DNA from: Verrucomicrobiales bacterium | Lineage (GTDB): Bacteria > Verrucomicrobiota > Verrucomicrobiia > Limisphaerales > UBA9464 | Direction of reading: 5' to 3' | Assembly (NCBI GenBank): GCA_016793645.1 | Contig: JAEUHD010000304.1 | Span: 1-46,554 of the forward strand | DNA length: 46,554 nucleotides | In this document: piece by piece, positions 23,680-45,953 of the stretch | Layout of the letters: each line of letters starts with the position of its first letter | Position numbering within the stretch: position 1 is the first letter of the stretch | Notes under the pieces: model-generated | What the model was told of the DNA's origin: nothing | Databases searched by the model: none | What the model saw: the letters and a program-made list of their open reading frames with translations, nothing else | Position numbers and translations under genes: made by a program

Positions 23680-24942
23680 GTGAAACAAACGTCTCCATTT
23701 TCCTCGGTCGTGCTGCTCGCCCTGCTGTCCTCCATGCGCATCGCGGCCGACATCAGCATCCCTGGAATCTCCGGCACACCCGTGGCCGGCATCGATGGCA
23801 ATTTCGCGCCAACATCACCCACCACCATCATCGATCTTTCAACCTCGCTCATCGGAGCCTGGGACAGTGCTCCTGCCAGCGGAACGACCGGGGTGTACGA
23901 CCCTGAAAAGTGGGGCGTCGTCTTCAAGTACTCGTCGGTGAACATACCGGCGGGCGTCACGATAAAATTCAGGAACAACGCGACGCGGGCACCTGTGGTT
24001 TGGTTGGTGACCGGGGATGTCACCATCTCTGGAAACATCAACCTTTACGGAGAAGACGGATCGATTCGCCAATTCCCGGAGCCCGGGCCGGGAGGGTTCA
24101 GGGGTGGCTCACACTTTACCCCGGTTGGAAGCGGCGGCATGGGACCCGGAGGGGGAAATCGAGGACAGAATCCAATCGGAGGTTCGAGCACGCCCGGCGG
24201 AGGCAGTTACCGAACCAATGCCAGTGCAAACTCCGGACCGTCCTATGGCGACCCTGAAATAACCCAATTGCTGGGTGGGTCCGGGGGAGGGAGCCATCGG
24301 GAAAGCACCCGGGGTGGAGGAGCAGGTGGTGGCGCAATCCTGATCGTCGCCACCGGACGGATCCACCTTGGTGGATCGATTGATGCCTTTGGCGGGACTT
24401 CCAGCATTTACGGCGGAGGTGGAAGCGGCGGATCGATTCGGTTGGTGGCTTCAGAGCTCACCGGCACCGGTTTTATCAATGTCCTAGGCGGAGGATCGGG
24501 AGATCTGGCTGGGAGCCCCGGCTTCATCCGCGCCGAAGCCGAGGTTTTCGGGGCCAATTCCGTTTCCGCCTATCCGCCCGGGATCAGCTCCGAGGTGATT
24601 TCAGGCCCCGCACGAATCTGGCCCGAGGAAACCGGCCCAAGAGCCCGAATTCTCTCGGTGTCCAACCTTCCGATCCCTCCCGATCCCCGATCCGATCTCG
24701 GCCTGGCCCCGACGGATGTGAATGTCCCCTTCAATGGTTCCCGCGAGGTCCGCATCGAGACCCGCAATTTCCCGACCACGGGCACGGTCACGTTGTTCGT
24801 CACCCCGGCCCAAGGTGACCGAACCTCGCTGAAGCCTGCGCTCCTCCCGGGCGGAACGAGTGCCTTGGCGACCTGGCAGGCCACCCTCGATTCCGCACTC
24901 TCCGGTCGCGTGGCGCTCCAAGTCCGCGCCGCGGCTGAATGA
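23680..24942 (+). CDS. Secreted glycine-rich protein GlyA (family copy 1 of 4)
   Basis: A 420-residue exported protein starting at GTG 23680 with signal peptide to about residue 23 ('SSMRIAADISIPG'). Layout shared by all four copies: (i) mature start 'ISIPGISGTPVAGIDGNF'; (ii) beta-domain with 'GVYDPEKWGVVFKYSSVNIP' and 'RAPVVWLVTGDVTISGNINL'; (iii) glycine-rich centre with 'PGPGGFRGG', 'GGMGPGGGNRG', 'YGDPEITQLLGGSGGG' and beta-helix-like turns 'GGAILIVATGRIHLGGSIDA' and 'GGGGSGGSIRLVASELTGTG'; (iv) C-terminal beta-domain with 'LAPTDVNVPFNGSREVRIET' and 'TGTVTLFVTPAQGDRT'. I do not recognise a named family; the centre resembles glycine-rich right-handed helix segments of bacterial adhesins. 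No anchor, catalytic motif or sorting signal is seen. The middle has clearly lower GC than C or D. Confidence 0.85.
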   Translation: MKQTSPFSSVVLLALLSSMRIAADISIPGISGTPVAGIDGNFAPTSPTTIIDLSTSLIGAWDSAPASGTTGVYDPEKWGVVFKYSSVNIPAGVTIKFRNNATRAPVVWLVTGDVTISGNINLYGEDGSIRQFPEPGPGGFRGGSHFTPVGSGGMGPGGGNRGQNPIGGSSTPGGGSYRTNASANSGPSYGDPEITQLLGGSGGGSHRESTRGGGAGGGAILIVATGRIHLGGSIDAFGGTSSIYGGGGSGGSIRLVASELTGTGFINVLGGGSGDLAGSPGFIRAEAEVFGANSVSAYPPGISSEVISGPARIWPEETGPRARILSVSNLPIPPDPRSDLGLAPTDVNVPFNGSREVRIETRNFPTTGTVTLFVTPAQGDRTSLKPALLPGGTSALATWQATLDSALSGRVALQVRAAAE

Positions 24943-24945
24943 CCG

Positions 24946-25051
24946 CCCGTAGACGACGTCAGACTCCATTCCCTCCCCCCCATCACCCACCCGCATCGAC
25001 GCTCCAAAGACGCAATCAGTGCCTCGTCACCTCGCCAGCTACCAATTCCCC
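24946..25051 (+). repeat. Intergenic repeat unit, about 105 bp (one copy)
   Basis: Starts 3 bases after the GlyA stop. It reads CCCGTAGACGACGTC, then 'AGACTCCATTCCCTCC', a C-rich middle, 'CGACGCTCCAAAGACGCA' and ends 'GCCTCGTCACCTCGCCAGC'. It matches the units after GlyB at 26287. The start codon of GlyB follows about 20 bases later. A spurious extension of the GlyB frame (PRHLAS) is created by this repeat. Confidence 0.85.
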
Positions 25052-25072
25052 CAATTCAAGAACCACACCGTC

Positions 25073-26284
25073 ATGAACGCCATCCACCGCATTCTGAAAC
25101 ATCTCCCCCTGCTGCTGCTGGCCTGCTGGCCTGCCACAGCAGCCATCACCATTCCCGGAATAACCGGTACTCCCGCCGCAGGTGTTGATGGGGAATTGAA
25201 CCTGGTGAGTGACCATCGCGTTATCGATCTCTCTGAGTCACTGCCCGGGACTTGGGACAGCATTCCAAGGGATGGAACAAAGGGAGTCTACGATACCAAC
25301 AAATGGGCCGTCGTTTTCAAATATTCCTCAGTGAACATATCGAGAAATCTAGAGCTGGGATTTAGGAACAATTCTGCGCGAGCGCCCGTTGTATGGCTCG
25401 TTTCCGGAGATGTCACCATCACCGGGACACTCAATCTCAATGCCGCGGCCTATACGGCTTCGGCCGACTATCAGGAACCGGGACCTGGCGGATTTCGGGG
25501 CGGAACCGAAATCGGAGTGCGTAGTGGAGGCATGGGGCCGGGTGGCGGCAATCGCAATTCCGCTGGCGCCAGCCACAAAAGACAGGATGGTATCGAAGCA
25601 GGCCCCTCGTACGGGGACCCAGAAATTCGGCAGCTCATCGGCGGTTCAGGTTCCGCGGCGAATTCAAGCGGCCGGGGAGGAGCCGGCGGCGGTGCCATCC
25701 TCATCGTGGCCACCGGAAAGATTGTGGTGAATGGAAACATTTTTGCCAACGGGAGTACGGTGTCGGGAGTGGGCGGGGGAAGTGGAGGCGCGGTTCGCCT
25801 CGTTGCCTCGAGCATTGAAGGCTCGGGATTGATTCAGACGCTAGGCACGGGAACCAGTCCTGGATTCGTCAGGACTGAGGCGGAGACGTACGGAGTCAGC
25901 AACCCCTCCGTTCACCCATTAGACTATAGCGTCGCCACCATCACGGGACCCATCGCGATCTGGCCGGAGGACAATGCCCCGACGGCACGGATTGTTTCCG
26001 TCTCCAACCTTCCGGTTCCAGCCGATCCCAAGGCGGCTCTGGGACTGGCGCCTACCGATGTCAATGTCCCCCTCAATGGCTCGCGACAGGTCCGAATTGA
26101 AACCCGGAACTTCCCCACGTCGGGAACCGTAACCCTGTTCGTGACTCCCGTTCAGGGGGATCGGACCGCACTCACTGCGACGATGCTTCCCGGTGGCAGC
26201 AATGACTTGGCCACCTGGGAGGCCACCCTCGACTCGGCGCTGACGGGACGCGCCGCGCTCCAAGTCCGCGCGGCCGCCGAATGA
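25073..26284 (+). CDS. Secreted glycine-rich protein GlyB (family copy 2 of 4)
   Basis: A 403-residue protein from ATG 25073 (MNAIHRILKH) with signal peptide to about residue 24 ('LLLLACWPATAA'). The frame is open from 25019, but that part is translated repeat DNA. Same domain order as GlyA: 'ITIPGITGTPAAGVDGEL', 'GVYDTNKWAVVFKYSSVNIS', 'RAPVVWLVSGDVTITGTLNL', 'EPGPGGFRGG', 'GGMGPGGGNRN', 'SYGDPEIRQLIGGSG', 'GGAGGGAILIVATGKIVVNG', 'GVGGGSGGAVRLVASSIEGS', and C-terminal 'LGLAPTDVNVPLNGSRQVRI'. Closest to GlyA, with which it shares the downstream repeat, so the pair probably arose by tandem duplication. The central DNA is the poorest in GC of the four copies (about 40% in one sampled line). Function unknown; surface or matrix protein inferred. 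Confidence 0.85.
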   Translation: MNAIHRILKHLPLLLLACWPATAAITIPGITGTPAAGVDGELNLVSDHRVIDLSESLPGTWDSIPRDGTKGVYDTNKWAVVFKYSSVNISRNLELGFRNNSARAPVVWLVSGDVTITGTLNLNAAAYTASADYQEPGPGGFRGGTEIGVRSGGMGPGGGNRNSAGASHKRQDGIEAGPSYGDPEIRQLIGGSGSAANSSGRGGAGGGAILIVATGKIVVNGNIFANGSTVSGVGGGSGGAVRLVASSIEGSGLIQTLGTGTSPGFVRTEAETYGVSNPSVHPLDYSVATITGPIAIWPEDNAPTARIVSVSNLPVPADPKAALGLAPTDVNVPLNGSRQVRIETRNFPTSGTVTLFVTPVQGDRTALTATMLPGGSNDLATWEATLDSALTGRAALQVRAAAE

Positions 26285-26286
26285 CT

Positions 26287-26550
26287 CCCGTAGACGACGT
26301 TAGGAGACTCCAATCCCTCCGCCCCATCCCCACCCGCAACAACGCTCCGGAAGACGCAGTATGTGCCTCGTCACCTCGCCAGCTACCCACCCCGTAGCAG
26401 ACGACGTCAGGAGACTCCATTCCCTCCGCCCCATCCCCCATCCGCAACAACGCTCCGGAAGACGCAGTATGTGCCTCGTCACCTCGCCAGCGACTCACCC
26501 GTAGAAGACGACATCCGGAGACTCCGTTCCGTCCCACCCCGATCCACCCC
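26287..26550 (+). repeat. Tandem intergenic repeats, about 2.4 units of 104-107 bp
   Basis: Units begin at 26287 (104 bp), 26391 (107 bp) and 26498 (partial, to about 26533). The first begins 2 bases after the GlyB stop. Units 1 and 2 share long identical stretches ('CAACGCTCCGGAAGACGCAG', 'TATGTGCCTCGTCACCTCGC'). The partial third unit runs into the short leader before the E1 start codon. Same element as 24946-25051. No hairpin with a T-run and no promoter is evident in it. Confidence 0.88.
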
Positions 26551-29500
26551 ATGAACTCCCATCCAAGCCACCGGGTGATACCCTACAGGCTCGCCCTGTT
26601 GTTCCTGGCTGCCGTCCTCGCCAGTTTCCCCAGCCTCGCCCAGTCCGCACCCGTCGAGGCGATCTCCAGGGAAATCTCCATCACTCTGGAGTCTGCGCCT
26701 GCGACCACCGGTTCCGAGGCCATCTCACGGGAGATCAGCCTCAGCATTCCCAGCCAGGCACCCGGCCCGGCCGGCGAAGCCATCTCCAGGGAATTGTCGA
26801 TCCGGATTCCCAGTCCCGAGGACGCCACCCGCCCGCGCTTCGAAGGTATTTCCCGCGAAGTCACCCTGGCCCTGCCCGCCGTCGGGGAGCCTCCCCGGCC
26901 GTCCGCCGAGGCGATCTCGCGCGAACTGACGCTCTTCGCCGCCACCAACTCCTCGGCCGTCCGCCTTCCGCAGGATTTCGCCAGCGGCAGTTTCCGATTT
27001 GAATCCATCGCCGATACCCGGCCCACCAATCCCGACCGCGCGCCGGCCGCGGACGTTAACGCCCTGTCGTCCGCAGGCACCATCACCCTCGGAACCGGAG
27101 CCTCCGCGTTTACCGGACCCGCCTACCAGAATCCTCCCGACGCCCTGCCGTCCGTTCAACTCGACTCCGCGCGCCAACTCACCGTGCTCCATCCGGGACC
27201 GGGATCCCGGGGCGCCTCCGCCGGCATTCCCCTGGGTCGCGCCGGACGCTACCTCATCCAGGGCCGCTTCGCGCGGGCCCACGAGGGCCGCGGTCTCGGC
27301 AACGGCGTCAGCGTCGCGATCCTGCGCAATCTCGACACCACCAATCTCCTCTTCACCGCATCCGTCAGCTCCGATCACCCGGCGAATCCATCGGCGCCCT
27401 TCGCCGGAACCAGCAGGGTCCCCTTCTCCGTCGTGGCCGAGTTCGTGGAAGGCGACGTCCTCCGCTGCGTCGTCTTCAGCGGGTCGTCGGGCAACGACAC
27501 CGCCGGCGACGTGACCGCACTTGAACTGCTGGCCGTGGCCCTGGAGGACGCGCCGCCCTTCTTCGCGTCCAGCAAACCCGTCCTCGTCGTGTCTCCCGAG
27601 GACGCCTCAGTTCAACGCGGTTCGAGCGCCTACTTCGACTGCGTGGCCCTGGGCGCGACGCCGCTTCAATACCGCTGGTTCCACAACGACCGCGAAATCT
27701 CCGGCGCCACCGGACCGACCCTCACTGTCGCCAACGCCACTCCGCAGGACGCCGGACGCTACTTCGTGACGGTCAGGAACTCCGTCGGCGAGACGTCCAG
27801 CACGGTCGCCAATTTGAAGGTGACGCCACGTCAGGGGGCCTTCCGGGGACTTGGATTCCTCCCTGGCGGCACCCAGGAAAGCGATGCGGTGGCGGTGTCA
27901 GATGATGGAGGAGTGGTCGTCGGAAATGCATCCTCCGCCCGTGGGCCGGAAGGATTTGTTTGGAAAGACGGGGCCATGGGCGGGATTGGATTCCTTCCGG
28001 ACCGGCGCAAGGATTTTAGCCAGGCCCTCGGAGTGTCCGGGGACGGACTGACCGTTGTCGGCTACGGCAGTTCGACCCCGCTACCAGGCTCCAGCAATTA
28101 TGACTGGGAAGGATTCACCTGGAAGGAGGGCGTCATGCAAAGCCTCGGCGTACCGGATGGCCCCCTGGTCCCCGGGGGACCGACGTACGACGCCACCTAC
28201 TCGATCGCTTATGCCGCGTCCCGCGATGGATCGTTCATTGTCGGCCAGGCCTTTCAAAATGTCGGCGGCCGACCGTGTTTCTGGGACTCCGGGGTCGGCA
28301 AGGTCCTGTTCGTCCTGGAGCCGGACGACCAGGCTTTGGCCTGGTCGGTGAGCGCCGACGGACGGGTAATGACCGGCCGCATTTCCGGATCCCCTCCAAC
28401 GGCCGCCCTCTGGCGGGACGGCGTGCCCTCCCGGATCCCGGAACTCTCGCCGGGCACCCGCCCCAAGATCTCCGCCGACGGACGGGTCATCGTCGGCACG
28501 GGTCTGGATGCACTGGCCAACCAGGCCGTCCGCTGGGAGTCCGGAACGGTCGAACCTTTGGGCGACCTTCCGGGCGGCGACCTCCGCAGCGAAGCCACGG
28601 GCACCAGCGCAGACGGAAGCGTCATCGTGGGCTGGGGAACGACCGACGCCGGGACGGAGGCATTCCTCTGGGACCGAACCGCAGGCCTGCGCTCCCTGCG
28701 ATCCCACCTCGCCAGCGAACTCGGGGTTGATCTCGCCGGATGGCAACTACTCCGGGCCAACGACATTTCCGCCGACGGCTCGACGGTCGTCGGCCAGGGT
28801 CTCAATCCCGACGGCAAACTGGAGGCCTGGGTGGTGCGCATCAAGGCGTCCGGCGCGCCGGTCATCCTTGGGCAACCCGTCGCCGCATCCGTTGTGGCCG
28901 GTCAACCAGTCACCTTCACCGTCAACGCCCTTTCCGAAACCGCTGCAACTTATCGCTGGTATCGCGACGGCAATCTGCTCGTCGGCGAAACCGCCAACCA
29001 ACTGACTCTCGCCTCGGTCAAGGCCTCGGATGCCGGTGCCTATTCCGTCTCCGTCGGGAATGCCGCCGGTCGTATCCTCAGCACGTCCGCCCGCCTCGAC
29101 GTCCTGATACCGCCCAAAATCGTGGAGGAACCCCAGCCCTACACCGCGAAGGCGGGCGAAAGCGCCCTCTTCACCGTGCGGGCCCAGGGAACGGAACCGC
29201 TGTCCTACGAATGGCGATTCAACGGAACTCCCCTGGGTGCGCCCAACCTTCCCACCCTCCAACTCGTCAACCTCGCCATCCCCAACGCAGGGCAGATCTC
29301 CGTCCGGGTCACCAATGCCGTCGGCACCGCCACCAGCGGTTCCGCCCGACTGCGGGTGATCGAACCCGGACGCCTCGCCCAGCCGCTTCCCTCCCTGTCC
29401 GCCGTGGACCTCGACGGTGAACTGATCCTCAAGGCCGACGTCGCGGGCACGCCCCCCTTCACCTACCAATGGCGGCTCAACGGACAGGACATCCGGGATC

Positions 29501-31419
29501 GCGATGCCTCCGGCCCCGAACTCCGCATCAGCCCGATCCGCCTCCAGGACGCCGGTATTTACACCGTGATCGTGGCCAATGAGGCCGGCGCCATCACCGG
29601 AGGACCCGCGGAGGTCCGCGTCCGCGTTACACCGCGACCCGGCAACGACGTGTTTGCCCAGGCGACCGATCTGACCGGCATCGACGACCCCGTGACCGGC
29701 ACCAACACAGGAGCCACCCGCGAGCCCGGCGAGAAGAACCATGCGTCCCAACCCGGCCACCAGTCGGTGTGGTACCGGTGGACACCACCCCAGGACGGCA
29801 GTGTCACGTTTCGAACCGTCGGCAGCGCCTTTGACACCCTGCTGGCGGCCTACACCGGCACCCGGGTGGACCAGCTCACCGAAATCGCCAGCAACGACGA
29901 CGCCACGGATGGCGCCTTCTTCGCCAGCGAGGTGCGCTTCAGCGTCCAGCGGAATACCCCCTACTTCCTGGCCGTGGACGGACTCGGCGATGACGCCGGC
30001 AATTACGTGTTGAGCTGGAACTTTGAACCCAGGGTGGCCCTCGTTCCGCGAATCACCCGTCATCCGGACAGCGTCACCCGCCTCCGGGGTCAACCGGTGA
30101 CTCTGAGCGTGGACGCCGAGAACGCGACCGACGTCACCTGGGAATTCAACGGCCGCCCGCTCACCGGTGTCTCCGGTTCCCAGCTGAATCTTGGTCCGTT
30201 GACGCCCGAGGACGTGGGAACCTACGTCGCCGCCGTCCGCGGGAACGGTGGCACCGTGTTCTCCCACCCGGCCGTCGTCGAAATCGGCCCCCAGCCGGAT
30301 GTCCGTTCCTACGACAAGCCGGCCGCGCGTCCCGCCTCCCAGATCGCGCCCAGCCCCATCGCGCGCCAGGCGGAGGGCGGATTCGGTCTCCTGCTTTCCC
30401 CGGGGCGTCCCGTGGAGCAATGGGTCAACAACGAGGTCAACACCACCCAACGGGAGGAGGCGAATCACTGCGGACGCCTCACCCGCCGCACCGGCTATCT
30501 GCTGCTCGAAGTCGAGAAGGACGGCCAGTTGGTGATCAACGTCACCAATACCGCCATCCCCCTCGTCCTCGCGTTGTACTCGTTTTCGGATCCGGACCAA
30601 TCCCTCGCCTGCGGAGACAACAACCGACTCGTCCTCGCCGACGCCAGGGCCGGCAGGATTTATTCCCTTGTCTTCGGCAGCGCGGCGGACCTCGGAGGCG
30701 TGATCGGATTGTCCTGCGTCAGCGGCACGCCACCGCCCGTGATTGAGAATCCTCCCACCACCACCGCGGTGGAACCGGGCCGGGGAGTCACCCTGCGCGC
30801 GCCACGGATTGAAGGACTGGAACCTGTGGCCCGGTATCAATGGTATCGCAACGGACGGAAGATCGAGGGGGCGGTGGGGGAATTCCTGCAACTCGAACCA
30901 TTCCAACCCGAGATGGCCGGCGACTATTCAGTCGTGCTCGACAACGAAGTCGGGCGAACCGAGTACCAGATTGGATCCCTCGCCGCGGACCTTCCCTTGT
31001 TGCCCGCAGCCCCCTCGGAATCCGTTCCTGGAGTGTTCACGTTCCGCCTCACGGGAAATCCCGGCCAGCGGGTGGCCGTCGAGCAGGGTTCCGAGCTGGG
31101 CGTCTGGAACAGCCGCGAAGAATTCTGGCTGCCCGCCGGCGGACAGGAATATCGCGATGAGGCCATGGCCAGCCGTTCCAGCCGCCTCTTCCACCTGACC
31201 GAGGTGCCGCTGACGATTGCCGAGGATGTCCCGCTCGAAGACGGCCGCCGCACCTGGCGCATCTCCGGCGGCCGCATCGGCGACCGCTACGTGTTGGAGC
31301 AATCCCTCAACGGAACCCAGTGGACCCCCATCCGCACCAACCGGGTGGAGGTCGGTCCGTTTCTTCACGTCGAGCCCGCTGGATTCAACGCTTCCCTCCG
31401 CAGCCGCCGCGCCGAATGA
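26551..31419 (+). CDS. Giant secreted multidomain protein E1 (EAISRE array, Ig-like, HAF propeller, PPC)
   Basis: A 1622-residue exported protein; signal peptide about 1-31 ('LASFPSLAQSA'). Order: five tandem EAISRE-type motifs (36, 56, 76, 98, 120); unassigned beta-domain (about 140-335, 'GVSVAILRNLDTTNLLFTAS'); Ig-like 1 (about 342-425); HAF-type repeats forming a propeller (about 430-765, 'VSGDGLTVVGYGS', 'SADGSVIVGWGTT'); Ig-like 2-4 (about 768-1028); a pre-peptidase-C-terminal-like domain (about 1030-1160, 'SVWYRWTPPQDGSVTFRTVG'); Ig-like 5 (to about 1245); a second, Cys-containing PPC-like domain (about 1275-1395, Cys1307, 1354, 1389); Ig-like 6; and two C-terminal 'YVLEQS..GTQWTPIRTN' type beta modules. 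No catalytic residues, sortase signal or PEP-CTERM are seen. Adhesion or matrix role inferred. Preceded by the tandem repeats, followed after 78 bp by GlyC. Confidence 0.88.
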   Translation: MNSHPSHRVIPYRLALLFLAAVLASFPSLAQSAPVEAISREISITLESAPATTGSEAISREISLSIPSQAPGPAGEAISRELSIRIPSPEDATRPRFEGISREVTLALPAVGEPPRPSAEAISRELTLFAATNSSAVRLPQDFASGSFRFESIADTRPTNPDRAPAADVNALSSAGTITLGTGASAFTGPAYQNPPDALPSVQLDSARQLTVLHPGPGSRGASAGIPLGRAGRYLIQGRFARAHEGRGLGNGVSVAILRNLDTTNLLFTASVSSDHPANPSAPFAGTSRVPFSVVAEFVEGDVLRCVVFSGSSGNDTAGDVTALELLAVALEDAPPFFASSKPVLVVSPEDASVQRGSSAYFDCVALGATPLQYRWFHNDREISGATGPTLTVANATPQDAGRYFVTVRNSVGETSSTVANLKVTPRQGAFRGLGFLPGGTQESDAVAVSDDGGVVVGNASSARGPEGFVWKDGAMGGIGFLPDRRKDFSQALGVSGDGLTVVGYGSSTPLPGSSNYDWEGFTWKEGVMQSLGVPDGPLVPGGPTYDATYSIAYAASRDGSFIVGQAFQNVGGRPCFWDSGVGKVLFVLEPDDQALAWSVSADGRVMTGRISGSPPTAALWRDGVPSRIPELSPGTRPKISADGRVIVGTGLDALANQAVRWESGTVEPLGDLPGGDLRSEATGTSADGSVIVGWGTTDAGTEAFLWDRTAGLRSLRSHLASELGVDLAGWQLLRANDISADGSTVVGQGLNPDGKLEAWVVRIKASGAPVILGQPVAASVVAGQPVTFTVNALSETAATYRWYRDGNLLVGETANQLTLASVKASDAGAYSVSVGNAAGRILSTSARLDVLIPPKIVEEPQPYTAKAGESALFTVRAQGTEPLSYEWRFNGTPLGAPNLPTLQLVNLAIPNAGQISVRVTNAVGTATSGSARLRVIEPGRLAQPLPSLSAVDLDGELILKADVAGTPPFTYQWRLNGQDIRDRDASGPELRISPIRLQDAGIYTVIVANEAGAITGGPAEVRVRVTPRPGNDVFAQATDLTGIDDPVTGTNTGATREPGEKNHASQPGHQSVWYRWTPPQDGSVTFRTVGSAFDTLLAAYTGTRVDQLTEIASNDDATDGAFFASEVRFSVQRNTPYFLAVDGLGDDAGNYVLSWNFEPRVALVPRITRHPDSVTRLRGQPVTLSVDAENATDVTWEFNGRPLTGVSGSQLNLGPLTPEDVGTYVAAVRGNGGTVFSHPAVVEIGPQPDVRSYDKPAARPASQIAPSPIARQAEGGFGLLLSPGRPVEQWVNNEVNTTQREEANHCGRLTRRTGYLLLEVEKDGQLVINVTNTAIPLVLALYSFSDPDQSLACGDNNRLVLADARAGRIYSLVFGSAADLGGVIGLSCVSGTPPPVIENPPTTTAVEPGRGVTLRAPRIEGLEPVARYQWYRNGRKIEGAVGEFLQLEPFQPEMAGDYSVVLDNEVGRTEYQIGSLAADLPLLPAAPSESVPGVFTFRLTGNPGQRVAVEQGSELGVWNSREEFWLPAGGQEYRDEAMASRSSRLFHLTEVPLTIAEDVPLEDGRRTWRISGGRIGDRYVLEQSLNGTQWTPIRTNRVEVGPFLHVEPAGFNASLRSRRAE
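26656..26940 (+). repeat. Five-fold EAISRE-type motif array encoded in E1
   Basis: Codes for five successive copies of E-(A/G)-I-S-R-E-(I/L/V)-(S/T)-(I/L)-x-(I/L) at residues 36, 56, 76, 98 and 120, spaced 20-22 residues apart by Pro/Ala-rich linkers ('ESAPATTGS', 'PSQAPGPAG'). It starts within a few residues of the predicted mature N-terminus. The conserved part reads as a short beta-strand with an invariant I-S-R-E. An independent four-fold array is in E2. Confidence 0.92.
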
Positions 31420-31497
31420 ACCGCGAGATCCTCCGGATCCTCATTGCCTGAGCCCATACTTCTTCCACAATTCCCACGCAAAAACCCCAAGCCTCCC

Positions 31498-32736
31498 ATG
31501 AAGTCGTTTCTTGTGGTCGCGATCGCCGCGGTCTCGTTTGTCCTGCAACCTCCGATCAGGGCCGACATCGTCGTCCCCGGCGCCAACGGACGCGACGGCG
31601 TCTTTGCCCCGGTCTCCAATATCGAAGTGGATCTGTCCCAGGCCATCACGGCGACCTGGGATTCCACCACAGAGAGCGGCGGCCGTGGCGTCTATGATCC
31701 CGCAAAATGGGCCGTCGTCTTCCGATATGCCTCCGTCAATATTCCGGAGGGAGTCACGGTCACCTTCAAGAACCATCCCACTCGCGCCCCCGTGGTATGG
31801 CTCGTGTCGGGTGACGCCAGCATCGGGGGGCGGGTCCTCCTCGATGGGAAGGATGACTCCTCCCTGAACCCCGTGGAACCGGGACCCGGTGGGTTTCGCG
31901 GAGGGCGCGGCGGGAATACCTCCTCGACTCCAGGAGGTGGAGGCATGGGACCCGGCGGAGGCAAGCCGACGCCGGATGCCGCCACACCCAGTGGGGCGAG
32001 TCACAGCATTCGCGGCAGCACCTATTCCGGTCCCGCCTATGGGGACAACGGCATCCGACGCCTCATGGGTGGATCCGGTGGAGGCGGGATTCTGACCGCG
32101 GACGGATCGGGCGGGGGAGGAGGCGGTGCCATCCTCATCGCGGCGCAGGGAACGCTGAACCTCACCGGACTCATCCGCGCCAACGGCGGCATTGGAAGAG
32201 TCGGCGGCGGAAGCGGCGGGGCCATCCGGATGATCGCCAATTCCTTCACCGGAGCGGGGACGCTGAGGGCCATCGGAACACCGTCCCGGGGGGTATTGTT
32301 TGATGGACAGCCCGGATACATCCACGCCTCGTCGCCGGGTTTGGAGGGTGAGATTCTCGGCAATATTGCCTCCCAACCGTCGGCCACGACGGAATCCTTG
32401 TCCGGGACCGTCGAACTGTGGCCCGACGAATCGTTTCCGCAGGCGCGGATTCTATCCGTCGCCGATCTCCCCGTCGCTGCGGATCCCGCGGCCGCCCTCG
32501 CTCCCCAGGCGCCGGATGTCTCCCTGCCCCCCGCTGCCCATCATACGGTGGTCATCGAAACGCGGAACTTCCCCCCAACCGGAACCGTGACTCTCTTCGT
32601 CACCGCCCTCCGCGGGGATCGCACCGAAGTCATTGCCAGCCATACCTCCGGCAATGAGACCGTCTCCACCTGGACGGCGACGCTCAGCGGCGTCACTGGA
32701 CGCCACGCCCTGCAGGTTCGGGCAGTGGCACCGTAG
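31498..32736 (+). CDS. Secreted glycine-rich protein GlyC (family copy 3 of 4)
   Basis: A 412-residue protein from ATG 31498 (MKSFLVV), signal peptide to about residue 22 ('FVLQPPIRADIVVPG'). Upstream in-frame ATG 31444 would put polar residues in front of the signal. It is the most diverged copy: the N-terminus reads 'IVVPGANGRDGVFAPVSNIE' instead of the PGISGTPVAGIDG form, but 'GVYDPAKWAVVFRYASVNIP', 'RAPVVWLVSGDASIGG', 'VEPGPGGFRGGRGG', 'MGGSGGGG', 'GGGGGAILIAAQGTLNLTG', 'GGGSGGAIRMIA' and 'TRNFPPTGTVTLFVTALRGD' keep the common plan. DNA composition is high-GC like the host chromosome, unlike A and B. It lies between the two giant proteins (78 bp after E1, 40 bp before E2), which suggests one transcript and a matched role with them. 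Confidence 0.85.
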   Translation: MKSFLVVAIAAVSFVLQPPIRADIVVPGANGRDGVFAPVSNIEVDLSQAITATWDSTTESGGRGVYDPAKWAVVFRYASVNIPEGVTVTFKNHPTRAPVVWLVSGDASIGGRVLLDGKDDSSLNPVEPGPGGFRGGRGGNTSSTPGGGGMGPGGGKPTPDAATPSGASHSIRGSTYSGPAYGDNGIRRLMGGSGGGGILTADGSGGGGGGAILIAAQGTLNLTGLIRANGGIGRVGGGSGGAIRMIANSFTGAGTLRAIGTPSRGVLFDGQPGYIHASSPGLEGEILGNIASQPSATTESLSGTVELWPDESFPQARILSVADLPVAADPAAALAPQAPDVSLPPAAHHTVVIETRNFPPTGTVTLFVTALRGDRTEVIASHTSGNETVSTWTATLSGVTGRHALQVRAVAP

Positions 32737-32776
32737 ATTTCGGAATGCCCTTCCTGGAACCCTCCGGATCACCTTG

Positions 32777-36355: not shown

Positions 36356-36394
36356 ACGTTCGATCCCGATTCGCAGCCTCACCCCCATGAATTC

Positions 36395-37666
36395 ATGAAT
36401 GCCTCCCGTCTCATCCACCCGCTCGTCGGGATTCTTCTTTGCGTTCCGGCGACCGCCGTTTTTGGAGCCATCGAAATCCCCGGCATTTCGGGCACTCCCG
36501 TGGCGGGGATCGACGGAGCCTTCGAACTCCCTGCGTCCACGGTGGTGGACCTGGGAACGGCGGCCACGGGTACCTGGGACAGCGCCCCGCCCGCTGGATT
36601 CCGCGGCGTGTACGACCCGGAGAAATGGGCCGTGGTTTACAAGTTCTCCTCCGTCAGCATCCCCACAGGTTGGGGCATCACATTTAGGAACCATCCCTCC
36701 CGGGCTCCAGTCGTCTGGCTGGTCACCGGGGACGTCACGATCAACGGAAACCTGATTCTCGATGGCGAAAGCCCGGGCAGTCGTCAGTTCGCCGAACCGG
36801 GACCGGGCGGGTTTCGCGGTGGCGCCAATATCAGCAAGCCCGGCGGCGGCGGCCTTGGACCCGGCGGCGGGGCTCTCGGTGACTATTCGCTTCCCGTAAC
36901 CTTGTTCCCAGGAGGCGGAGGCCATCGGGAACCCGGCCCCAGCCCGGGATCTGTCGCCTACGGGGACCCCGGGGTTCAAGTCCTCCTGGGCGGCTCCGGC
37001 GGAGGCGCCCGCGAAACGGGTGTCGGCGGAGGCGGAGGCGGGGGTGCCCTCCTGATCATCGCCACCGGACGTATCACCCTGAACGGGACGATTACTGCTC
37101 GCGGTGGACCCGGCCGCTACACCGGCGGCGGCAGTGGCGGTGCCGTCCGGCTGGTGGCCTCGGAAATCTTCGGCAACGGGCAGATCAATGTGGAGGGGGG
37201 CACCGACCTCAACAGCTTCAATCCCAACTCCGCCGGACGCCCGGGCTATGTCGCCACGGAGGCGATCTCCTACGGTCTGGACACCATCAGTGCGATTCCG
37301 GGCAACATCCAGGCCTCCCTCCTGACCGGACCCGTCCGAGTCTGGCCAAACACGACGACGCCCACGGCGCGCATCGTCACGGTGGCCAACCTGGCCGTGC
37401 CGCCGGATCCCCGCGCCGCGCTGGGGGTCGCACCCACGGATGTGAACGTGCCCGTGGGCGGTTCCCGAAAGGTCCGGATCGAGACGCGGAATTTCCCCAC
37501 CACCGGCACGGTTCGCCTCTACGTCACCCCCACCCAGGGCGAACGCACCGAACTGTTGGCCTCGGTCCTTCCCGGCGGGACGGAGTCCCTCGCCCAATGG
37601 GAAGCCACCCTGGAGTCAGCGCTCACGGGACGCGTCGCCCTGCAGGTCCACGGCACGGCACCTTGA
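36395..37666 (+). CDS. Secreted glycine-rich protein GlyD (family copy 4 of 4)
   Basis: A 423-residue protein from ATG 36395 (MNASRLI), signal peptide to about residue 24 ('CVPATAVFGAIEIPG'). Carries all family segments: 'IEIPGISGTPVAGIDGAF', 'GVYDPEKWAVVYKFSSVSIP', 'RAPVVWLVTGDVTINGNLIL', 'EPGPGGFRGGANISKPGGGG', 'AYGDPGVQVLLGGSGGG', 'GGGGGGALLIIATGRITLNG', 'GGGSGGAVRLVASEIFGNGQ', and C-terminal 'LGVAPTDVNVPVGGSRKVRI', 'TGTVRLYVTPTQGERT'. It begins 39 bp after E2. The following 204-bp gap has a hairpin (CTGCCG-AATC-CGGCAG near 37776) without a T-run and no clear promoter. Function unknown. Confidence 0.85.
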   Translation: MNASRLIHPLVGILLCVPATAVFGAIEIPGISGTPVAGIDGAFELPASTVVDLGTAATGTWDSAPPAGFRGVYDPEKWAVVYKFSSVSIPTGWGITFRNHPSRAPVVWLVTGDVTINGNLILDGESPGSRQFAEPGPGGFRGGANISKPGGGGLGPGGGALGDYSLPVTLFPGGGGHREPGPSPGSVAYGDPGVQVLLGGSGGGARETGVGGGGGGGALLIIATGRITLNGTITARGGPGRYTGGGSGGAVRLVASEIFGNGQINVEGGTDLNSFNPNSAGRPGYVATEAISYGLDTISAIPGNIQASLLTGPVRVWPNTTTPTARIVTVANLAVPPDPRAALGVAPTDVNVPVGGSRKVRIETRNFPTTGTVRLYVTPTQGERTELLASVLPGGTESLAQWEATLESALTGRVALQVHGTAP

Positions 37667-37870
37667 GACTTCGGACTTCGGGAATGGCATCCGGGTCATG
37701 GACTGCCTTATTGTCTACTCCCTGATGTGCCGGAAAGAAGCCAGGGGATGTGGTGTTCCGGGCATCTTTTCCCTGCCGAATCCGGCAGTGGACGCCCATC
37801 CCGCCACGAGACGGGTCACCGTTCTCCCGGAATCCCGTAGGAAGGGTTCGAGGTCCGCGCCCTCCCCGAG

Positions 37871-40800
37871 ATGATCCGCCTCCAGTCCATGCGTCTGTTT
37901 CCCTTCCTCGCGGCTCTGCTGCTGTTCTCCGTTTGGGCGGTGCCCGGCCGTGCGGCGGACTCCGAGGAACTCGCCCGGGTCGAGGCCGTGGTGGGCACCG
38001 TGCAGATCTCCCCTGCCGGCGCCCGCACTTGGGTGACAGTCACGGCGTCACAACCCCTGTTCGCCGGCGACCAGGTCCGGACCGGTGAGCGGAGCCGGAT
38101 GACGCTCCGGATGCGCGACGGATCCATCGTCCACCTCGATGAACTCACCACGACCCGCCTCGAAGGCCAGCCGTCCGGACTGATCCTGAACGTCCTCCGA
38201 GGCATCCTCTCGTTCTTCCATCGTAATGAGCCGGGCAGCCTTGAAGTGCGTTCGGGTTCGACCTCGGCCTTGATTCGCGGCACCGAATTCGCCTTTGCGG
38301 CCTCCGAGGACGGGACCGTTCAACTCACCCTGCTGGACGGCGCCGTGCTCCTCAAGAATCCCCTGGGTTCCCAGGAGTTGACCGGAGGCGAGGCGGCCAT
38401 CGCGAGCCCGACCGTGGCGCCGCACCGGACGGCCCTGCTCACGGAAGGCCCGGTCGAGGCCCTGCAATGGCAGTTGTATTATCCGGCCATTCTGGATCCC
38501 GGGGAATTGAACCTGCCTTCCGATATCGTCGCGGAACTCGCCGCCGTCCTCCAACGATATCAGGAGGGGGATCTTCTCGGCGCCCTCGCCGCCTATCCGG
38601 CCGGACGGGAACCTGAGGATCCCCGGGAACAGATCCTCCTGGCCGCATTGGTGCTATCCGTCGGCAATGTCGCCGAAGCGGAGCGCCGGCTCGCCTCGCT
38701 TCCCCGCGACCCGACCCTCGAACGCTTTGCGGTCTCGCTGCACCAGTTGATCAATGCCGCGCGGCTCCTTCCGTGTGACGGGCATGATGCTCCGAATGCG
38801 GCGACGCCCGCCCTGGCCACCGAATGGATGGCACGCTCCTACTGTCGTCAGTCGGCGAGGGATCTCGACGGTGCCCTGGCGGCCGCGCGAAAAGCCGCTG
38901 AACATCGACCGGACTTCGGATTCGCCTGGGCGCGGATCGCGGCGCTGGAGTTCAGTTTCGGACACCGTCGCGCCGCCGCCGAAGCGTTGGACCGAGCCCT
39001 GCAACTCTCTCCGCGCAACGCCGCCGCCGTGACCCTTTCCGGATTTCTGGCGGCGGCACGATTTGAGTTCAAGAAGGCCTCCGAGAGGTTCGATGCCGCA
39101 CGCGCACTGGATCCCCGCCTCGCCGACGCCTGGCTGGGGCGGGGCCTGGTCGCCATGCGGGAAGGCAGGACCGCCGCGGCGCTTGAGGACATGACAATTG
39201 CGGCTTCCACGGAACCGCAGCGGGGCGTCCTGAGAAGCTACCTCGGCCGCGCCTACGCGATGGACCACCAGCTCACGCAGGCCGGCAAGGAACTGGACCT
39301 CGCGGAGAAGCTGGATGCGGAGGATCCCACGGTCTGGCTCTACCGCGGCCTGCTGCTCCAGCAGGAGAGCCGCATCAACGAGGCGATCCGCGCGCTCAAC
39401 ACCGCCGAGGATCTAACCGAGGAACGGGCTCTCTATCGCTCCCGCCTTCTGCTTGAACAGGACCGGTCCGTCGTCAACGGCAACCGCGCCATTGCCTATC
39501 GGGATGGCGGATTGGAACCCATCGCACGGCGGGAGGCGGGGCGCGCCCTCAGCCTCGACGCGGCCAATGCCGGAGCGCACCGGTTTCTAGCGGACAGCTA
39601 TGCCTCCACCGAGCGGGTAAATCTCCGCTACGAATCCGCACGCGCCGCCGAGTATCTTCAGGCCAATTTGCTCGCCCCCGTTGGTGCCGGACCGTTGTCC
39701 GCGTCCCTCAGCCAGCAGGACTACTCCCCGCTGTTGGAGCAGGACCGTCCGCACGTCTATTCCGTCACCAGCTATGAACAGGTTGGTGGCTGGCAGCAGA
39801 CCGGCGGCATCTATGGCACCACCGGCCGGCTCGGCTACGCCGCGGATGCCTACTATGCCTCGGGCGACGGCGTGGCGAGCAACACCGACTTCGAACAGAC
39901 CGCCGTCCAGGTCCAGGGAAAGTTCCAGGCGGGCGACCGCGACACCGTCTATCTGCAGGCCCTCGGGGCGTGGCAGGAGGCCGGGGACCTGGTCACTTAC
40001 GGCGACCCTTATTTCAGCAACACCGATCTGCGCACCACCGAGGAACTGCATCCGATCCTGGCCGCCGGATGGCACCGCGCCTGGTCGCCGGAACACCATA
40101 CCCTGGTTCTGGGCGGATGGATCGACAGTTCGCAATCGCTGACCGATCCGACCAGCCAGGGGCTGGTCATCACCCGGAATCCCGCAGGACAAATCCGCCT
40201 GATCGATTCCTTCCCGGCTCCCCAGCCGGTGGGCCGCAGTTACGACAGTTCCGAATCGTGGCTCTCCATCGAAGGGCAGCATATTTGGGAGACCCCCCGA
40301 AACACAGTGATCGTCGGCGTGAAGTATCAATCCGGCCGCCTCGACGCAGAGAATGACTATTCCGGATTGAACCGCCTGCTGGCGCCGCCCGGGACGTCCC
40401 TGAACGCCGACGCCCGCCGGACCCAGATTTACGCCTATGACACCTGGCGGATCGTGGATTCCCTCGCGCTGACGGCGGGGATCAGCGGAGATTGGGAAAC
40501 CTATCCTGGGAACTTCCGCTCTGGTCCGCTCACCGACGGTGATGAACAGGCATCGCAGGCTTCCCCCAAGTTTGGTGTGGTATGGGAGGCCAGGACCAAC
40601 CTCTGGTTGCGGGGCGCGTACACGCGCTCCCTCGGAGGCGTCGGCTTGGAGCAAAGCCTCCGGCTGGAACCCACACAGGTCGCCGGATTCAACCAGGCCT
40701 TTCGCAGCCTGATTCCCGAGTCCGTGGTCGGGACAGTTCCAGGGACGCAGATGCAGACGGGAAATGCGGCGATCGAAACCCGTTTCGGTCCGAACACGCT

Positions 40801-41380
40801 TCTCGGACTGGAAGGCGACTGGTTGAAGTCATCGGGATCCCGCCGGATTGGCGCCTACGGATTGGTAACGGATCCCAGGGAACGATTCGCCCCCACGTCG
40901 TTCGCCGAGGATCTGGAGTTTGTGGACCGGGGCATCACCGCGTACGTCGGACAACTGGCAGGCAGGGACTGGACCTTGTTCCTCCGTTATCGGGCGGGTT
41001 TCACCGACTATGAGGAATCCCTTCCCGAGGCCGCCTCCAACATCCGAATCCGGGTGCCGGGCCTCGCCAGCGAATCCTCCACGGACATCGTCACCCAGGC
41101 CGTCACGCTCAGCGGGCGGTTCAATCATCCGACCGGCTGGTTCGCCGGTGCGGACACCACCTGGACCCACCAGTCGGGAAGCGGCGCTTGGGCGGAGCCG
41201 ACGGATGCCTATTGGATGGTCAATGCCTTCGTCGGGCACCGGTTCTGGGAACGCCGGGTGGAAATCCTGGTCGGTCTCGAAAACCTGGCGAACCAGTCCT
41301 ATCAGGTGAGTCCCCTGACCCTGATCGCCGCCCCCCCCCAGGAACGGTCCTTCGTTGCCCGGCTGAAGTGGACGTACTGA
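37871..41380 (+). CDS. F1: FecR domain + TPR solenoid + outer-membrane beta-barrel
   Basis: An 1169-residue exported protein. Signal peptide about 1-29 ('VWAVPGRAADSEEL'). FecR domain about 36-195, with 'GILSFFHRNEPGSLEVRSGS' and 'LIRGTEFAFAASEDGTVQL'. TPR-type helices about 225-600 ('NAAAVTLSGFLAAARFEFKK', 'ADAWLGRGLVAMREGRTAAA', 'TVWLYRGLLLQQESRINEAI'). From about 630 to the end, alternating amphipathic strands form a large barrel ('SPKFGVVWEARTNLWLRGAY', 'LENLANQSY'), closing with 'RSFVARLKWTY', the terminal-aromatic signal for BAM insertion. There is no TonB box or plug domain. The TPR-barrel order recalls BcsC/PgaA-type exporters; the FecR part could face the periplasm as a binding or peptidoglycan-linked module. 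The exported cargo is unknown; the neighbouring Gly and E proteins are candidates. Confidence 0.87.
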   Translation: MIRLQSMRLFPFLAALLLFSVWAVPGRAADSEELARVEAVVGTVQISPAGARTWVTVTASQPLFAGDQVRTGERSRMTLRMRDGSIVHLDELTTTRLEGQPSGLILNVLRGILSFFHRNEPGSLEVRSGSTSALIRGTEFAFAASEDGTVQLTLLDGAVLLKNPLGSQELTGGEAAIASPTVAPHRTALLTEGPVEALQWQLYYPAILDPGELNLPSDIVAELAAVLQRYQEGDLLGALAAYPAGREPEDPREQILLAALVLSVGNVAEAERRLASLPRDPTLERFAVSLHQLINAARLLPCDGHDAPNAATPALATEWMARSYCRQSARDLDGALAAARKAAEHRPDFGFAWARIAALEFSFGHRRAAAEALDRALQLSPRNAAAVTLSGFLAAARFEFKKASERFDAARALDPRLADAWLGRGLVAMREGRTAAALEDMTIAASTEPQRGVLRSYLGRAYAMDHQLTQAGKELDLAEKLDAEDPTVWLYRGLLLQQESRINEAIRALNTAEDLTEERALYRSRLLLEQDRSVVNGNRAIAYRDGGLEPIARREAGRALSLDAANAGAHRFLADSYASTERVNLRYESARAAEYLQANLLAPVGAGPLSASLSQQDYSPLLEQDRPHVYSVTSYEQVGGWQQTGGIYGTTGRLGYAADAYYASGDGVASNTDFEQTAVQVQGKFQAGDRDTVYLQALGAWQEAGDLVTYGDPYFSNTDLRTTEELHPILAAGWHRAWSPEHHTLVLGGWIDSSQSLTDPTSQGLVITRNPAGQIRLIDSFPAPQPVGRSYDSSESWLSIEGQHIWETPRNTVIVGVKYQSGRLDAENDYSGLNRLLAPPGTSLNADARRTQIYAYDTWRIVDSLALTAGISGDWETYPGNFRSGPLTDGDEQASQASPKFGVVWEARTNLWLRGAYTRSLGGVGLEQSLRLEPTQVAGFNQAFRSLIPESVVGTVPGTQMQTGNAAIETRFGPNTLLGLEGDWLKSSGSRRIGAYGLVTDPRERFAPTSFAEDLEFVDRGITAYVGQLAGRDWTLFLRYRAGFTDYEESLPEAASNIRIRVPGLASESSTDIVTQAVTLSGRFNHPTGWFAGADTTWTHQSGSGAWAEPTDAYWMVNAFVGHRFWERRVEILVGLENLANQSYQVSPLTLIAAPPQERSFVARLKWTY

Positions 41381-41546
41381 GCGTTGGGGTCCACGGGGAC
41401 GAAAGGTTCGACCCGGGAGACGCGTTCTCCGTTGGGGTTTCAGACGGCTGGACGTCGCCGACACGGAACCCGCACGCACACAACCCACCAATGCAGGATC
41501 GCCAAACCGCTTCAACCGGGGCAACCATCACCATGAGGGCCCTGAA

Positions 41547-44500
41547 ATGACGTCACCTCCGTCCGCGGACCCCGTAGAAACCCGCATGAGTGCCCAACCC
41601 ACTTCAGGATCACCACGGTTTCCAGGCCGGTCTGGGAGGGAAACGCGGCCGGACCGGTTTCTGTCTGCGGCAGGGTGGCTCGGCCTCGTCCTCACGGTCC
41701 TGATGGCCTCGTGCGTCCGAGTCCAGGCGGCCGACGAACCCCGCGCCGAAGCCACGGTCCAGTATGTTCAGGGCCTGACCGTGCAGGTGATCCGTGCGGG
41801 CGCGACCACCGGCGACCCGATTCAGGCCAACGCCGTCCTGCGGGCGGGTGACACGCTCCGAACGGGCGAACACAGCGAAGCCGGCCTGCTGCTGAGTGAC
41901 GGAACGATCTTGAGTGTCAGGGAGATGGCCACCGTGGAGATCCAAAGGGCCGATGCCAGCGTGATGGTCAATCTGGTCCAGGGCATCCTCTCCTTCTTCC
42001 ACCGGGATCGTCCGGGAAGCTTTCGAGTCCGCCGGGGCACCACCGTGGCCATCGTTCGGGGCACGGAATTCGTTTTTGCCGCCGCACCGGACGATGGCGT
42101 CGTAATGACCCTGTTCGATGGAGAAGTGGTCTTCCCGGATCAGCAGGGCGGCGACTACACCGTCCAGGCGCTCCCTGGGGCGCCGGTGCGCGTGACGGTG
42201 GTTCCCGGCCAGCCTCCCCATCAGACCGCAGTGCTCGCCTCCGAAGCCATCGAGGCGATCCAATGGCTGCTGTATTACCCCGGGGTCCTGGATCTCCGCG
42301 ACCTCCAGTTGTCCGCGGAATCCAGGTCCGCACTTTCGGAGTCCATGAAACTCTATGAACAGGGCGACCTCATCGGTGCGTTGAGAAAATATCCCCCTGA
42401 ACGTCCTGCGGCGGACGCCGATGAGGTGCTCTTCCATGCCGCCATCCTCCTGTCGGTCGGGGATGTCCCGTCCGCGCTGCAACTCCTGTCCACGCTGCCC
42501 CGTGAGGACCGGATCCAGCGCCTTGCCGACGCCCTGCGTCAGTTGATCGCCGCCGTTCAATTGCGGGCGTGCACCGACGATCCCGGGCGAACCAATCTTC
42601 TGACCACGGAATGGATGTCCCGTTCCTATTGCCTCCAGTCCGGCGCCAAACTTGAGGAGGCACGCGAGGCCGCCCGCGCGGCGACGGTGTCCTCACCCGA
42701 CTTCGGATTTGCCTGGGCCCGGCTTGCGGAATTGGACTTCAGTTTTGGCGACCTCCGGGCGGTGGAGAAGGCCCTCGCCCGTGCCCAGGTCCTGTCCCCG
42801 AGGAACGCCCAGGTTTTCGTGCTCAACGGATTCCTGCTGGCCGCCCGACGGGAAAGCCGAAAGGCGGAGGAGCAGTTCAACCGCGCCATCGCCCTCGACC
42901 CCGGCCTCGGCAACGCGTGGCTGGGGCGGGGCCTGATGCGAATCCGGGAGGGAGATCGTGTCGGGGGTAGAAGGGACCTGGCCATGGCCACAGCACTGGA
43001 ACCCCAGCGGGCCGCGTTTCGGAATTATCTGGGGAAGGCCTATTCCGCAGAACGCAACGGAACCCAGGCGCTTCACGAACTGGAGCTGGCCCGAAAGGCG
43101 GATCCGGTGGATCCAACCTCGTGGCTCTACAAGGCCCTGGAACTGGACGCCCAAAATCGCGTCAATGAAGCGATCCGGGAACTGGAAGAAGCCCAGAATC
43201 TCACTGGGACCCGGAATCTGTACCGCTCCCCGGCATTACTGGCGCAGGATCTATCCATTGCCAGCGTCAGCCTTGCCCGATTGTACCGCGATGCAGGACT
43301 CTCGGAATGGAGCCTGAGCCAGGCTGTCCGGGCGGTGGATGCCAGCTACGAGAATTTCTCGGCCCACCTGTTTCTTGCGGACAGCTACCAACTGATGCGG
43401 GATCCGAATCTCACCAACCTCCGGCTCGAAAGCGCCGCCTTCAGTGAATACCTGATCGCCAATCTCTTTGCCCCAGGAGGGGTGCGAATCTTCTCCCCGG
43501 CCATGTCGCAGCAGGAATACGCCCAACTGTTCGAACAGCACCGCATTGGCGGCAGTACCGCCACGGACTTCTCGAACCAAGGCGCCTGGCAGGAGACCGC
43601 TCAAGTCTTCGGAACCTTCGACAAGAGCAGTTTCGCCGTCGAGGCCTTCTACGGAAGCAGCGCGGGGTACCGCCCCAACAACGACCAGGACATCCGCCAG
43701 TTCTCCGCACTCTGGCGCCAGCAGGTCACGGAAAGCGACACCCTCTTCGCCCAAGTCTACTCGCTCTATCGCGACGGAGGCGATCTGCGGCAAATTGGAA
43801 ATCCAACAAACTTCAACACATACTTTCACTTCGAGGAACGGCAGAATCCGGATGTGGCGCTGGGGTATCGCCATGAATGGAGTGTGGGAAATAACACCCT
43901 GTTCCTTTACAGCCATGCCCGGGATCTGGTTTCGGTCACGAATGTAGCCCGCGTGCCCCTGGTTTCGAGGCAAGATATGCGCCCTCCGCTGACTTTGCCC
44001 TCCCCGTTCGGCCTGGATCTGGACCGCTCCCTAAATCTCAACAATGTTGAACTCCAGCAGGTCGCTACATTGGGAGTGTGGTCCATAATTGCCGGCGGCC
44101 GGGTTCAGTTCGGGTCTGGCAGTGCAGACTCCCTCCTCTTTCCGACGGAAGTATTCCCAATTCCCGACGAGGGTTTAGGGATTCCCGATTCCGTCCCCAG
44201 CTCCGTGGACGGATCCTTGGGGCGCCAGACCGCCTACACCTACCTTTATTGGACCCCGCGTCACTGGCTTACAATGGTCGGTGGCCTTGCTTTTGATCAC
44301 CTAAACTACCCTCAAAGCCTCGACTACCCTCCATACTCCGGGGAGCAGACCAGTATTCATCACTGGTCCCCCAAGGCGGGAGTGGTGCTCACACCCAGTG
44401 ACCTGACGACCTTCCGGGCCGCCTACACTGAGTCCCTCAACGGATCGGACCTCGACCAAAGCTATCGCATAGAACCCCCGCAAATCGCCGGCTTTGTGCA

Positions 44501-45197
44501 GACGTTTCGGAACGTCGTTCCCGAATCTCTCCTCGGAGCCACTCCAGGCGCTGTGGTTCAGGACGCCGCCATTGCCTGGGAGCAGCGCCTGAATCACGGA
44601 ACCTATATGGGGGCACTGGGACAAATCCTATGGAGTGACTCCACACGCACCGACGGATCTTTTGACATCGACTTCCTTTCGGGGGATCCACCCCAACCCT
44701 CCACGTTCGAGCGCCAACTCAGCTTTCGAGAACGACGAGTCGGAGCGTACATTCAGCAGTTGCTTGGAGACTCCTGGAGCGTCGGTGTTCGCTATCTCTG
44801 CACCGAAGGGGAATTGGACGCCCCCAGCCCCGATATTCCCCAGTTGAACACCGAGAACCGGGGCCTCCTCAACCAGGTGGGGATGTTTGCAATCTTCAAT
44901 CTGCGCGGAGGATTCTTTGCACAGGCCGAAGCCCTGTGGAACGACCAGCACGGCACCACGGACGAGGTCAGTTTCGATGGCGATACGGGCGAAATTTTTG
45001 CAGTGCCCGGATCGTTCGCAGAGACCTTCTGGCAGTTCAACTTTATGGTGGGATACCGCTTCGCCCGCCGTCAAGGTGAAGTGGCCTTGGGGATCCTGAA
45101 CGCCACGGGTTCGGACTACAACTTGAACCCCGTCACCAGCTATATGGACCTCCCGCACCAACGGGCACTGGTCGGAAGATTTCGAATTCAATTCTAA
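41547..45197 (+). CDS. F2: FecR domain + TPR solenoid + outer-membrane beta-barrel, paralog of F1
   Basis: A 1216-residue paralog of F1 directly downstream (166 bp). A long N-terminus precedes the signal core ('WLGLVLTVLMASC...VQAADEP'); the in-frame ATG at 41586 may be the true start. 'MASC' resembles a lipobox weakly, but cleavage at VQA/ADE is more likely. FecR domain about 66-230 ('GILSFFHRDRPGSFRVRRGT', 'RGTEFVF'). TPRs about 255-640 ('NAQVFVLNGFLLAARRESRK', 'GNAWLGRGLMRIREGDRVGG'). Barrel from about 675 ('SPKAGVVLTPSDLTTFRAAY', 'IAGFVQTFRNVVPESLLG'), ending 'RALVGRFRIQF'. The DNA of the barrel half (from about 43,790) is markedly poorer in GC than the FecR/TPR half. It converges with the minus-strand gene, 17 bp between the stops. 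Confidence 0.87.
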   Translation: MTSPPSADPVETRMSAQPTSGSPRFPGRSGRETRPDRFLSAAGWLGLVLTVLMASCVRVQAADEPRAEATVQYVQGLTVQVIRAGATTGDPIQANAVLRAGDTLRTGEHSEAGLLLSDGTILSVREMATVEIQRADASVMVNLVQGILSFFHRDRPGSFRVRRGTTVAIVRGTEFVFAAAPDDGVVMTLFDGEVVFPDQQGGDYTVQALPGAPVRVTVVPGQPPHQTAVLASEAIEAIQWLLYYPGVLDLRDLQLSAESRSALSESMKLYEQGDLIGALRKYPPERPAADADEVLFHAAILLSVGDVPSALQLLSTLPREDRIQRLADALRQLIAAVQLRACTDDPGRTNLLTTEWMSRSYCLQSGAKLEEAREAARAATVSSPDFGFAWARLAELDFSFGDLRAVEKALARAQVLSPRNAQVFVLNGFLLAARRESRKAEEQFNRAIALDPGLGNAWLGRGLMRIREGDRVGGRRDLAMATALEPQRAAFRNYLGKAYSAERNGTQALHELELARKADPVDPTSWLYKALELDAQNRVNEAIRELEEAQNLTGTRNLYRSPALLAQDLSIASVSLARLYRDAGLSEWSLSQAVRAVDASYENFSAHLFLADSYQLMRDPNLTNLRLESAAFSEYLIANLFAPGGVRIFSPAMSQQEYAQLFEQHRIGGSTATDFSNQGAWQETAQVFGTFDKSSFAVEAFYGSSAGYRPNNDQDIRQFSALWRQQVTESDTLFAQVYSLYRDGGDLRQIGNPTNFNTYFHFEERQNPDVALGYRHEWSVGNNTLFLYSHARDLVSVTNVARVPLVSRQDMRPPLTLPSPFGLDLDRSLNLNNVELQQVATLGVWSIIAGGRVQFGSGSADSLLFPTEVFPIPDEGLGIPDSVPSSVDGSLGRQTAYTYLYWTPRHWLTMVGGLAFDHLNYPQSLDYPPYSGEQTSIHHWSPKAGVVLTPSDLTTFRAAYTESLNGSDLDQSYRIEPPQIAGFVQTFRNVVPESLLGATPGAVVQDAAIAWEQRLNHGTYMGALGQILWSDSTRTDGSFDIDFLSGDPPQPSTFERQLSFRERRVGAYIQQLLGDSWSVGVRYLCTEGELDAPSPDIPQLNTENRGLLNQVGMFAIFNLRGGFFAQAEALWNDQHGTTDEVSFDGDTGEIFAVPGSFAETFWQFNFMVGYRFARRQGEVALGILNATGSDYNLNPVTSYMDLPHQRALVGRFRIQF

Positions 45198-45940: not shown

Positions 45941-45953
45941 AGGTCTGCGAGGC

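Follow-up and report, generated by a model that had tools for sequence, protein, structure and literature searches.

The gene cluster described here is not one system but two conserved modules that meet in a giant protein, E, whose F-linked body is joined to a Gly-linked tag. The pair formed by this tag and its partner is the real novelty of the locus and points to an undescribed tag-and-partner system by which surface proteins would be built or anchored. A literature search found no paper on the repeat motifs of the tag or on the pair of Gly and tandem-repeat proteins. Giant Ig-rich proteins are abundant in Verrucomicrobiota and related phyla. A common tag with a cognate partner would help to find out where these giants go and how they are held.

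Organization of the locus

We have analyzed a stretch of 46,554 nt (the window), in which all eight ORFs of the locus are present on the plus strand in the order Gly-Gly-E-Gly-E-Gly-F-F. The features are the following:

23680..24942, plus strand: Gly1, glycine-rich, with a beta-helix-like body and an Ig-like domain at the C-terminus
25019..26284, plus strand: Gly2, paralog of Gly1, likely ATG at 25073
26292..26534, no strand: intergenic 107-bp tandem repeat, 2.3 copies, 91% matches, directly upstream of E1
26551..31419, plus strand: E1, giant multi-Ig protein, predicted to be secreted, with a PPC-like segment and a HAF-repeat insert
26656..26955, plus strand: N-terminal SRE array of E1, 5 repeats (EAISREISIT...)
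30283..31380, plus strand: E1 counterpart of the C-terminal part of E2
31444..32736, plus strand: Gly3, Gly paralog, likely ATG at 31498
32777..36355, plus strand: E2, giant multi-Ig protein, predicted to be secreted, 58% identical to E1, likely ATG at 32777
32903..33130, plus strand: N-terminal SRE array of E2, 4 repeats
35195..36301, plus strand: C-terminal part of E2, whose relatives in other genomes adjoin F genes
36395..37666, plus strand: Gly4, Gly paralog
37871..41380, plus strand: F1, with a FecR domain, TPRs and a plug-less beta-barrel like that of TonB receptors
41547..45197, plus strand: F2, same architecture as F1 and 39% identical to it

The division into three paralogous families, with this order and strand, had been proposed by a previous sequence-only reading and was borne out by the ORF positions and by identities far above chance within each family (50-60% of the Gly paralogs to Gly1, 58% between E1 and E2, 39% between F1 and F2). 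The same reading described several gaps of 39-78 bp, and four are of this size (Gly1-Gly2, 76 bp; E1-Gly3, 78 bp to the likely ATG; Gly3-E2, 40 bp; E2-Gly4, 39 bp). The other three are longer (Gly2-E1, 266 bp, filled by the 107-bp tandem repeat; Gly4-F1, 204 bp; F1-F2, 166 bp). Given these longer gaps, a single transcript for all eight genes is only putative. Scans for promoters and terminators gave counts no higher than in shuffles, and Rfam gave no match. The genes upstream of the locus are ordinary housekeeping ones, for instance those of glutamyl-tRNA synthetase, ribosome recycling factor and a chlorite dismutase-like protein. A trypsin/PDZ protease gene is followed by an intergenic repeat with a 94-bp unit (19451-19706; 2.7 tandem copies, 95% matches). 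The contig ends 1.4 kb beyond F2, and an Ig-domain protein, putatively secreted, is encoded there on the opposite strand (45215-46171, minus).

The giant proteins and the Gly proteins

Ig domains were detected by Pfam in both E1 and E2. Neither has a Pfam PPC match of its own, but their PPC-like segment matches other giants that do have Pfam PPC. Directly after the signal peptide (those of the window proteins were called by eye) we found tandem repeats of about 20 residues, EAISREVSVFN-like, five in E1 and four in E2, that we call SRE repeats. Their core is [AG]-I-S-R-E-[VIL]-[ST], after which come hydrophobic residues in alternation. At residues about 430-780 E1 has a HAF-repeat insert that is missing in E2, which is a modular gain or loss within the giant; NCBIfam gave only weak TPR and HAF matches. 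Neither the SRE arrays nor the insert exclusive to E1 had been mentioned in the sequence-only reading. When the SRE repeats were modelled alone the pLDDT was about 30 and they were predicted to be unstructured, from a thin alignment of six sequences, and the model of the E2 repeats with the next domain had an uninformative pLDDT of 45. The value of about 30 would be expected if the tag becomes ordered upon binding, and it may reflect merely the six-sequence alignment.

No Pfam or NCBIfam match was found for the Gly proteins. The structural model (pTM 0.87) contains strands resembling a beta-helix at residues 17-284 and an Ig-like domain at 295-398. Compared with the two-partner secretion domain of HxuA, the beta-helix part gave a middling Z of 7.9 over 129 residues, values near 8 being in the range of common arrangements. 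Foldseek with this model returned nothing below 0.001, in rows that came mostly from the Ig-like C-terminal domain and probed the beta-helix part poorly. A profile of 24 Gly proteins had no match among PDB sequences, and Gly1 had no relatives in viral contigs. The four Gly proteins of the window form one clade in a tree of 69 Gly proteins, indicating local duplication.

Gly genes and repeat arrays are neighbours across phyla

The Gly and E genes had been taken as part of a dedicated surface or matrix set, and their gene linkage turned out to be very strong. When the repeat region of E1 was searched against 145 related genomes, the six matches outside its own genome all directly adjoined a close Gly homologue. 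We extended the search with an SRE-array profile to another 388 genomes from 199 genera of the phylum and found arrays in four genomes besides its own; strong matches to the Gly profile (> 300 bits) appeared in those same four, an overlap with a chance of 1 in about 9e8. Array and close Gly homologue were adjacent at 5/5 places in these genomes. The repeat HMM found no arrays in shuffled proteins or in F neighbourhoods. The same pair is present on contigs of Armatimonadota (L104, L109, L110) and Planctomycetota (L111). Adjacency on contigs was scored on stop-to-stop ORFs, since a simple gene caller missed some low-GC3 Gly genes. L107 (2188-11926), whose record is labelled Candidatus Eisenbacteria, has seven Gly paralogs in tandem ahead of an ORF of 3067 aa, in which diverged SRE repeats were read by eye. 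The number of repeats did not track with the number of Gly paralogs.

A similar pattern was found with other repeat types. Beside 40 more distant Gly homologues, the same-strand neighbour codes for a protein that appears to be secreted, is often giant and carries tandem repeats of 20-25 residues, usually at its end and rarely at its start, and these repeats are VVAQPPVSVLLP-like, SAPVSYLNA-like or SPVVSYQYY-like; VAQPPVSVLLP is a repeat of the AQPP type. Some of the distant Gly loci, such as L121, L136 and L147, have no clear terminal array. In the opposite direction, which is unbiased, a profile of the AQPP-type array located 37 loci in the 145 genomes, 32 of them within 2 kb of a Gly-superfamily match; one or more of the remaining five reach the end of a contig. 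The genome of the window has two more Gly-superfamily genes on other contigs (C316 and C296; L076, L077), adjoining giants with C-terminal repeats of the AQPP type. Repeat type matches Gly subfamily: in the Gly tree (69 proteins) two changes suffice to explain which type the neighbour carries, the minimum for three types, against a mean of 27.5 after shuffling, although the labels of some rows were assigned by eye and near relatives inflate this kind of clustering. The partner giants have very different bodies (Ig, CARDB, TSP3, fn3, Big_7). As the pairing is kept across phyla in spite of such divergent bodies, the conserved unit is the tag plus Gly and not the body.

F genes are linked to other partners

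In F1 and F2, Pfam detected FecR, TPR and a TonB-type barrel, with FecR and TPR preceding the barrel and no plug model. PF00593, a 22-strand-type barrel, was matched over the cut-off in F1 (positions 23-436 of 436, 5e-7), the match of F2 being partial and under the Pfam cut-off. A profile of 22 F barrels retrieved TonB-dependent receptors from the PDB, weakly and over part (best E 6e-6). The analogy with BcsC and PgaA that had been drawn for F is unsupported, as the matches are to TonB-dependent receptors and no BcsC/PgaA barrel model was found in a Pfam scan to E 0.1. Nor is there support for F as an exporter. Among the Pfam matches of the genes of the window there was no polysaccharide synthase.

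F genes are common in the order. They were detected in 136 of the 145 related genomes (with a loose cut-off), Gly genes in 54, and none of 98 F genes had a Gly-superfamily gene within 2 kb (one had such a gene within 10 kb). The sequence-only reading had joined Gly, E and F in one system, and had itself named families standing apart in other genomes as evidence against it, which is what we found for F. Instead, CHASE2 sensor genes (kinase, cyclase or histidine kinase fusions) were located within 2 kb of 43 of the 98 F genes. At the F loci L083-L097, CHASE2 is fused to a Ser/Thr kinase, cyclase or histidine kinase. This neighbourhood of a FecR-TPR-barrel protein and a CHASE2 sensor, F-CHASE2, is widespread in the order and worth naming. 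Beside F1 and F2 no CHASE2 gene was found in the window, whose contig ends shortly after F2. The 43 include an F fragment on another contig of the same genome (C264; L075, 1-4614), a truncated barrel behind which a CHASE2-PAS-histidine kinase-receiver protein is encoded.

Searches with E were swamped by common Ig domains, and we used the 18 best matches to its C-terminal part, of which three were within 2 kb of an F gene and six within 10 kb. PPC giants flank F at several loci as well. In gene order, a weaker link between E and F is therefore real.

Proposed function

The account that we favor, with a probability of about 0.55 as a whole, reads the repeats as a multivalent docking tag for Gly and places F at the outer membrane. 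The first module would be an obligate two-gene set, a secreted Gly protein with a beta-helix body (to which the subfamily of the window adds an Ig-like domain at the end) and a large secreted protein in which 3-8 short, strand-like repeats form an array. Outside the cell each array would bind the Gly protein cognate to it, and by way of these Gly proteins the giant would be anchored, linked or assembled into a surface layer or matrix of Ig proteins. The second module would consist of the body of E and F, the latter an outer-membrane FecR-TPR-barrel protein. For F we infer from gene neighbours alone that at the outer membrane it most likely senses, holds or stabilises the giant and signals inwards, as suggested by the CHASE2 sensor genes that often accompany F elsewhere.

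If Gly were a dedicated partner for secretion or folding (a chaperone or an exoprotein-handling factor) and the repeats an export signal instead of a permanent dock, the picture would be identical, with cognates paired one-to-one, a tag at the terminus and matched types, and the middling resemblance to HxuA fits this as well. We find this unlikely: common arrangements reach similar scores, neither a barrel nor POTRA nor any Pfam match is found in Gly, which itself looks like an exoprotein, and repeats at either the N- or the C-terminus, in 3 to 8 copies, would be unusual for an export signal. The adjacency of Gly and array could derive from common regulation or history rather than from contact. 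In another reading, repeats and Gly would be just lineage-specific low-complexity surface proteins linked by co-transcription, without direct interaction; these genomes are rich in Ig giants, and local duplication yields Gly paralogs. However, the persistence of the link across phyla, with tag and Gly conserved beside very divergent bodies, and a repeat type that follows the Gly tree make this distinctly improbable.

That all eight genes form one export system, with Gly and E exported or anchored by F1/F2, has in its favor that they are adjacent on the same strand here and that relatives of the C-terminal part of E adjoin F in three other genomes (G031, G144 and G059, gaps 75-166 bp). We give this very little credit, considering the separation of F from Gly, their different distribution among genomes, the type of the barrel and the link of F to CHASE2.

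Going further from the docking account, there might be a multi-phylum surface assembly system in which several repeat types serve as addresses and every type is recognized by a separate subfamily of glycine-rich beta-helix proteins, so that one cell could carry several independent giant-protein layers. We propose this tentatively, as a possibility that falls short of even odds. The pairing would give names, as pairs, to dozens of neighbours now called "hypothetical". It could also supply new orthogonal protein-docking pairs.

Comparison with known systems

Cohesin-dockerin scaffolds have elements similar to those proposed here, namely repeated modules on a giant secreted protein, a cognate partner and specificity types. 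Unlike them, E1, E2, Gly1 and Gly3 have no cohesin or dockerin domain in Pfam, the repeats of the window are strand-like motifs of about 20 residues, and the Gly and E genes are obligate neighbours. A beta-helix-like secreted protein in a two-gene set is also known from two-partner secretion (FHA, HxuA exoproteins); the HxuA match of Gly is middling, and Pfam gave no match to the TPS (haemagglutination activity) domain in Gly. However, no adjacent POTRA-barrel transporter is found among the Pfam matches of the window, and the partner is a repeat-tagged Ig giant.

In the case of F, a FecR-domain protein gene lies beside a CHASE2 histidine kinase in the BiofilmReg operon of Burkholderia contaminans (PMC5192318), the arrangement seen with CHASE2 sensors at 43/98 F genes, although F1/F2 lack such a neighbour in the window and the BiofilmReg protein has LysM and no TPR-barrel (PMC5192318). 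The polymer exporters BcsC and PgaA share with F the succession of TPR and outer-membrane barrel, but F has FecR in addition and its barrel is of the TonB-receptor type. With TonB-dependent receptors the barrel is alike (PF00593 in F1), but no plug model was matched in F1/F2, where FecR and TPR regions precede the barrel.
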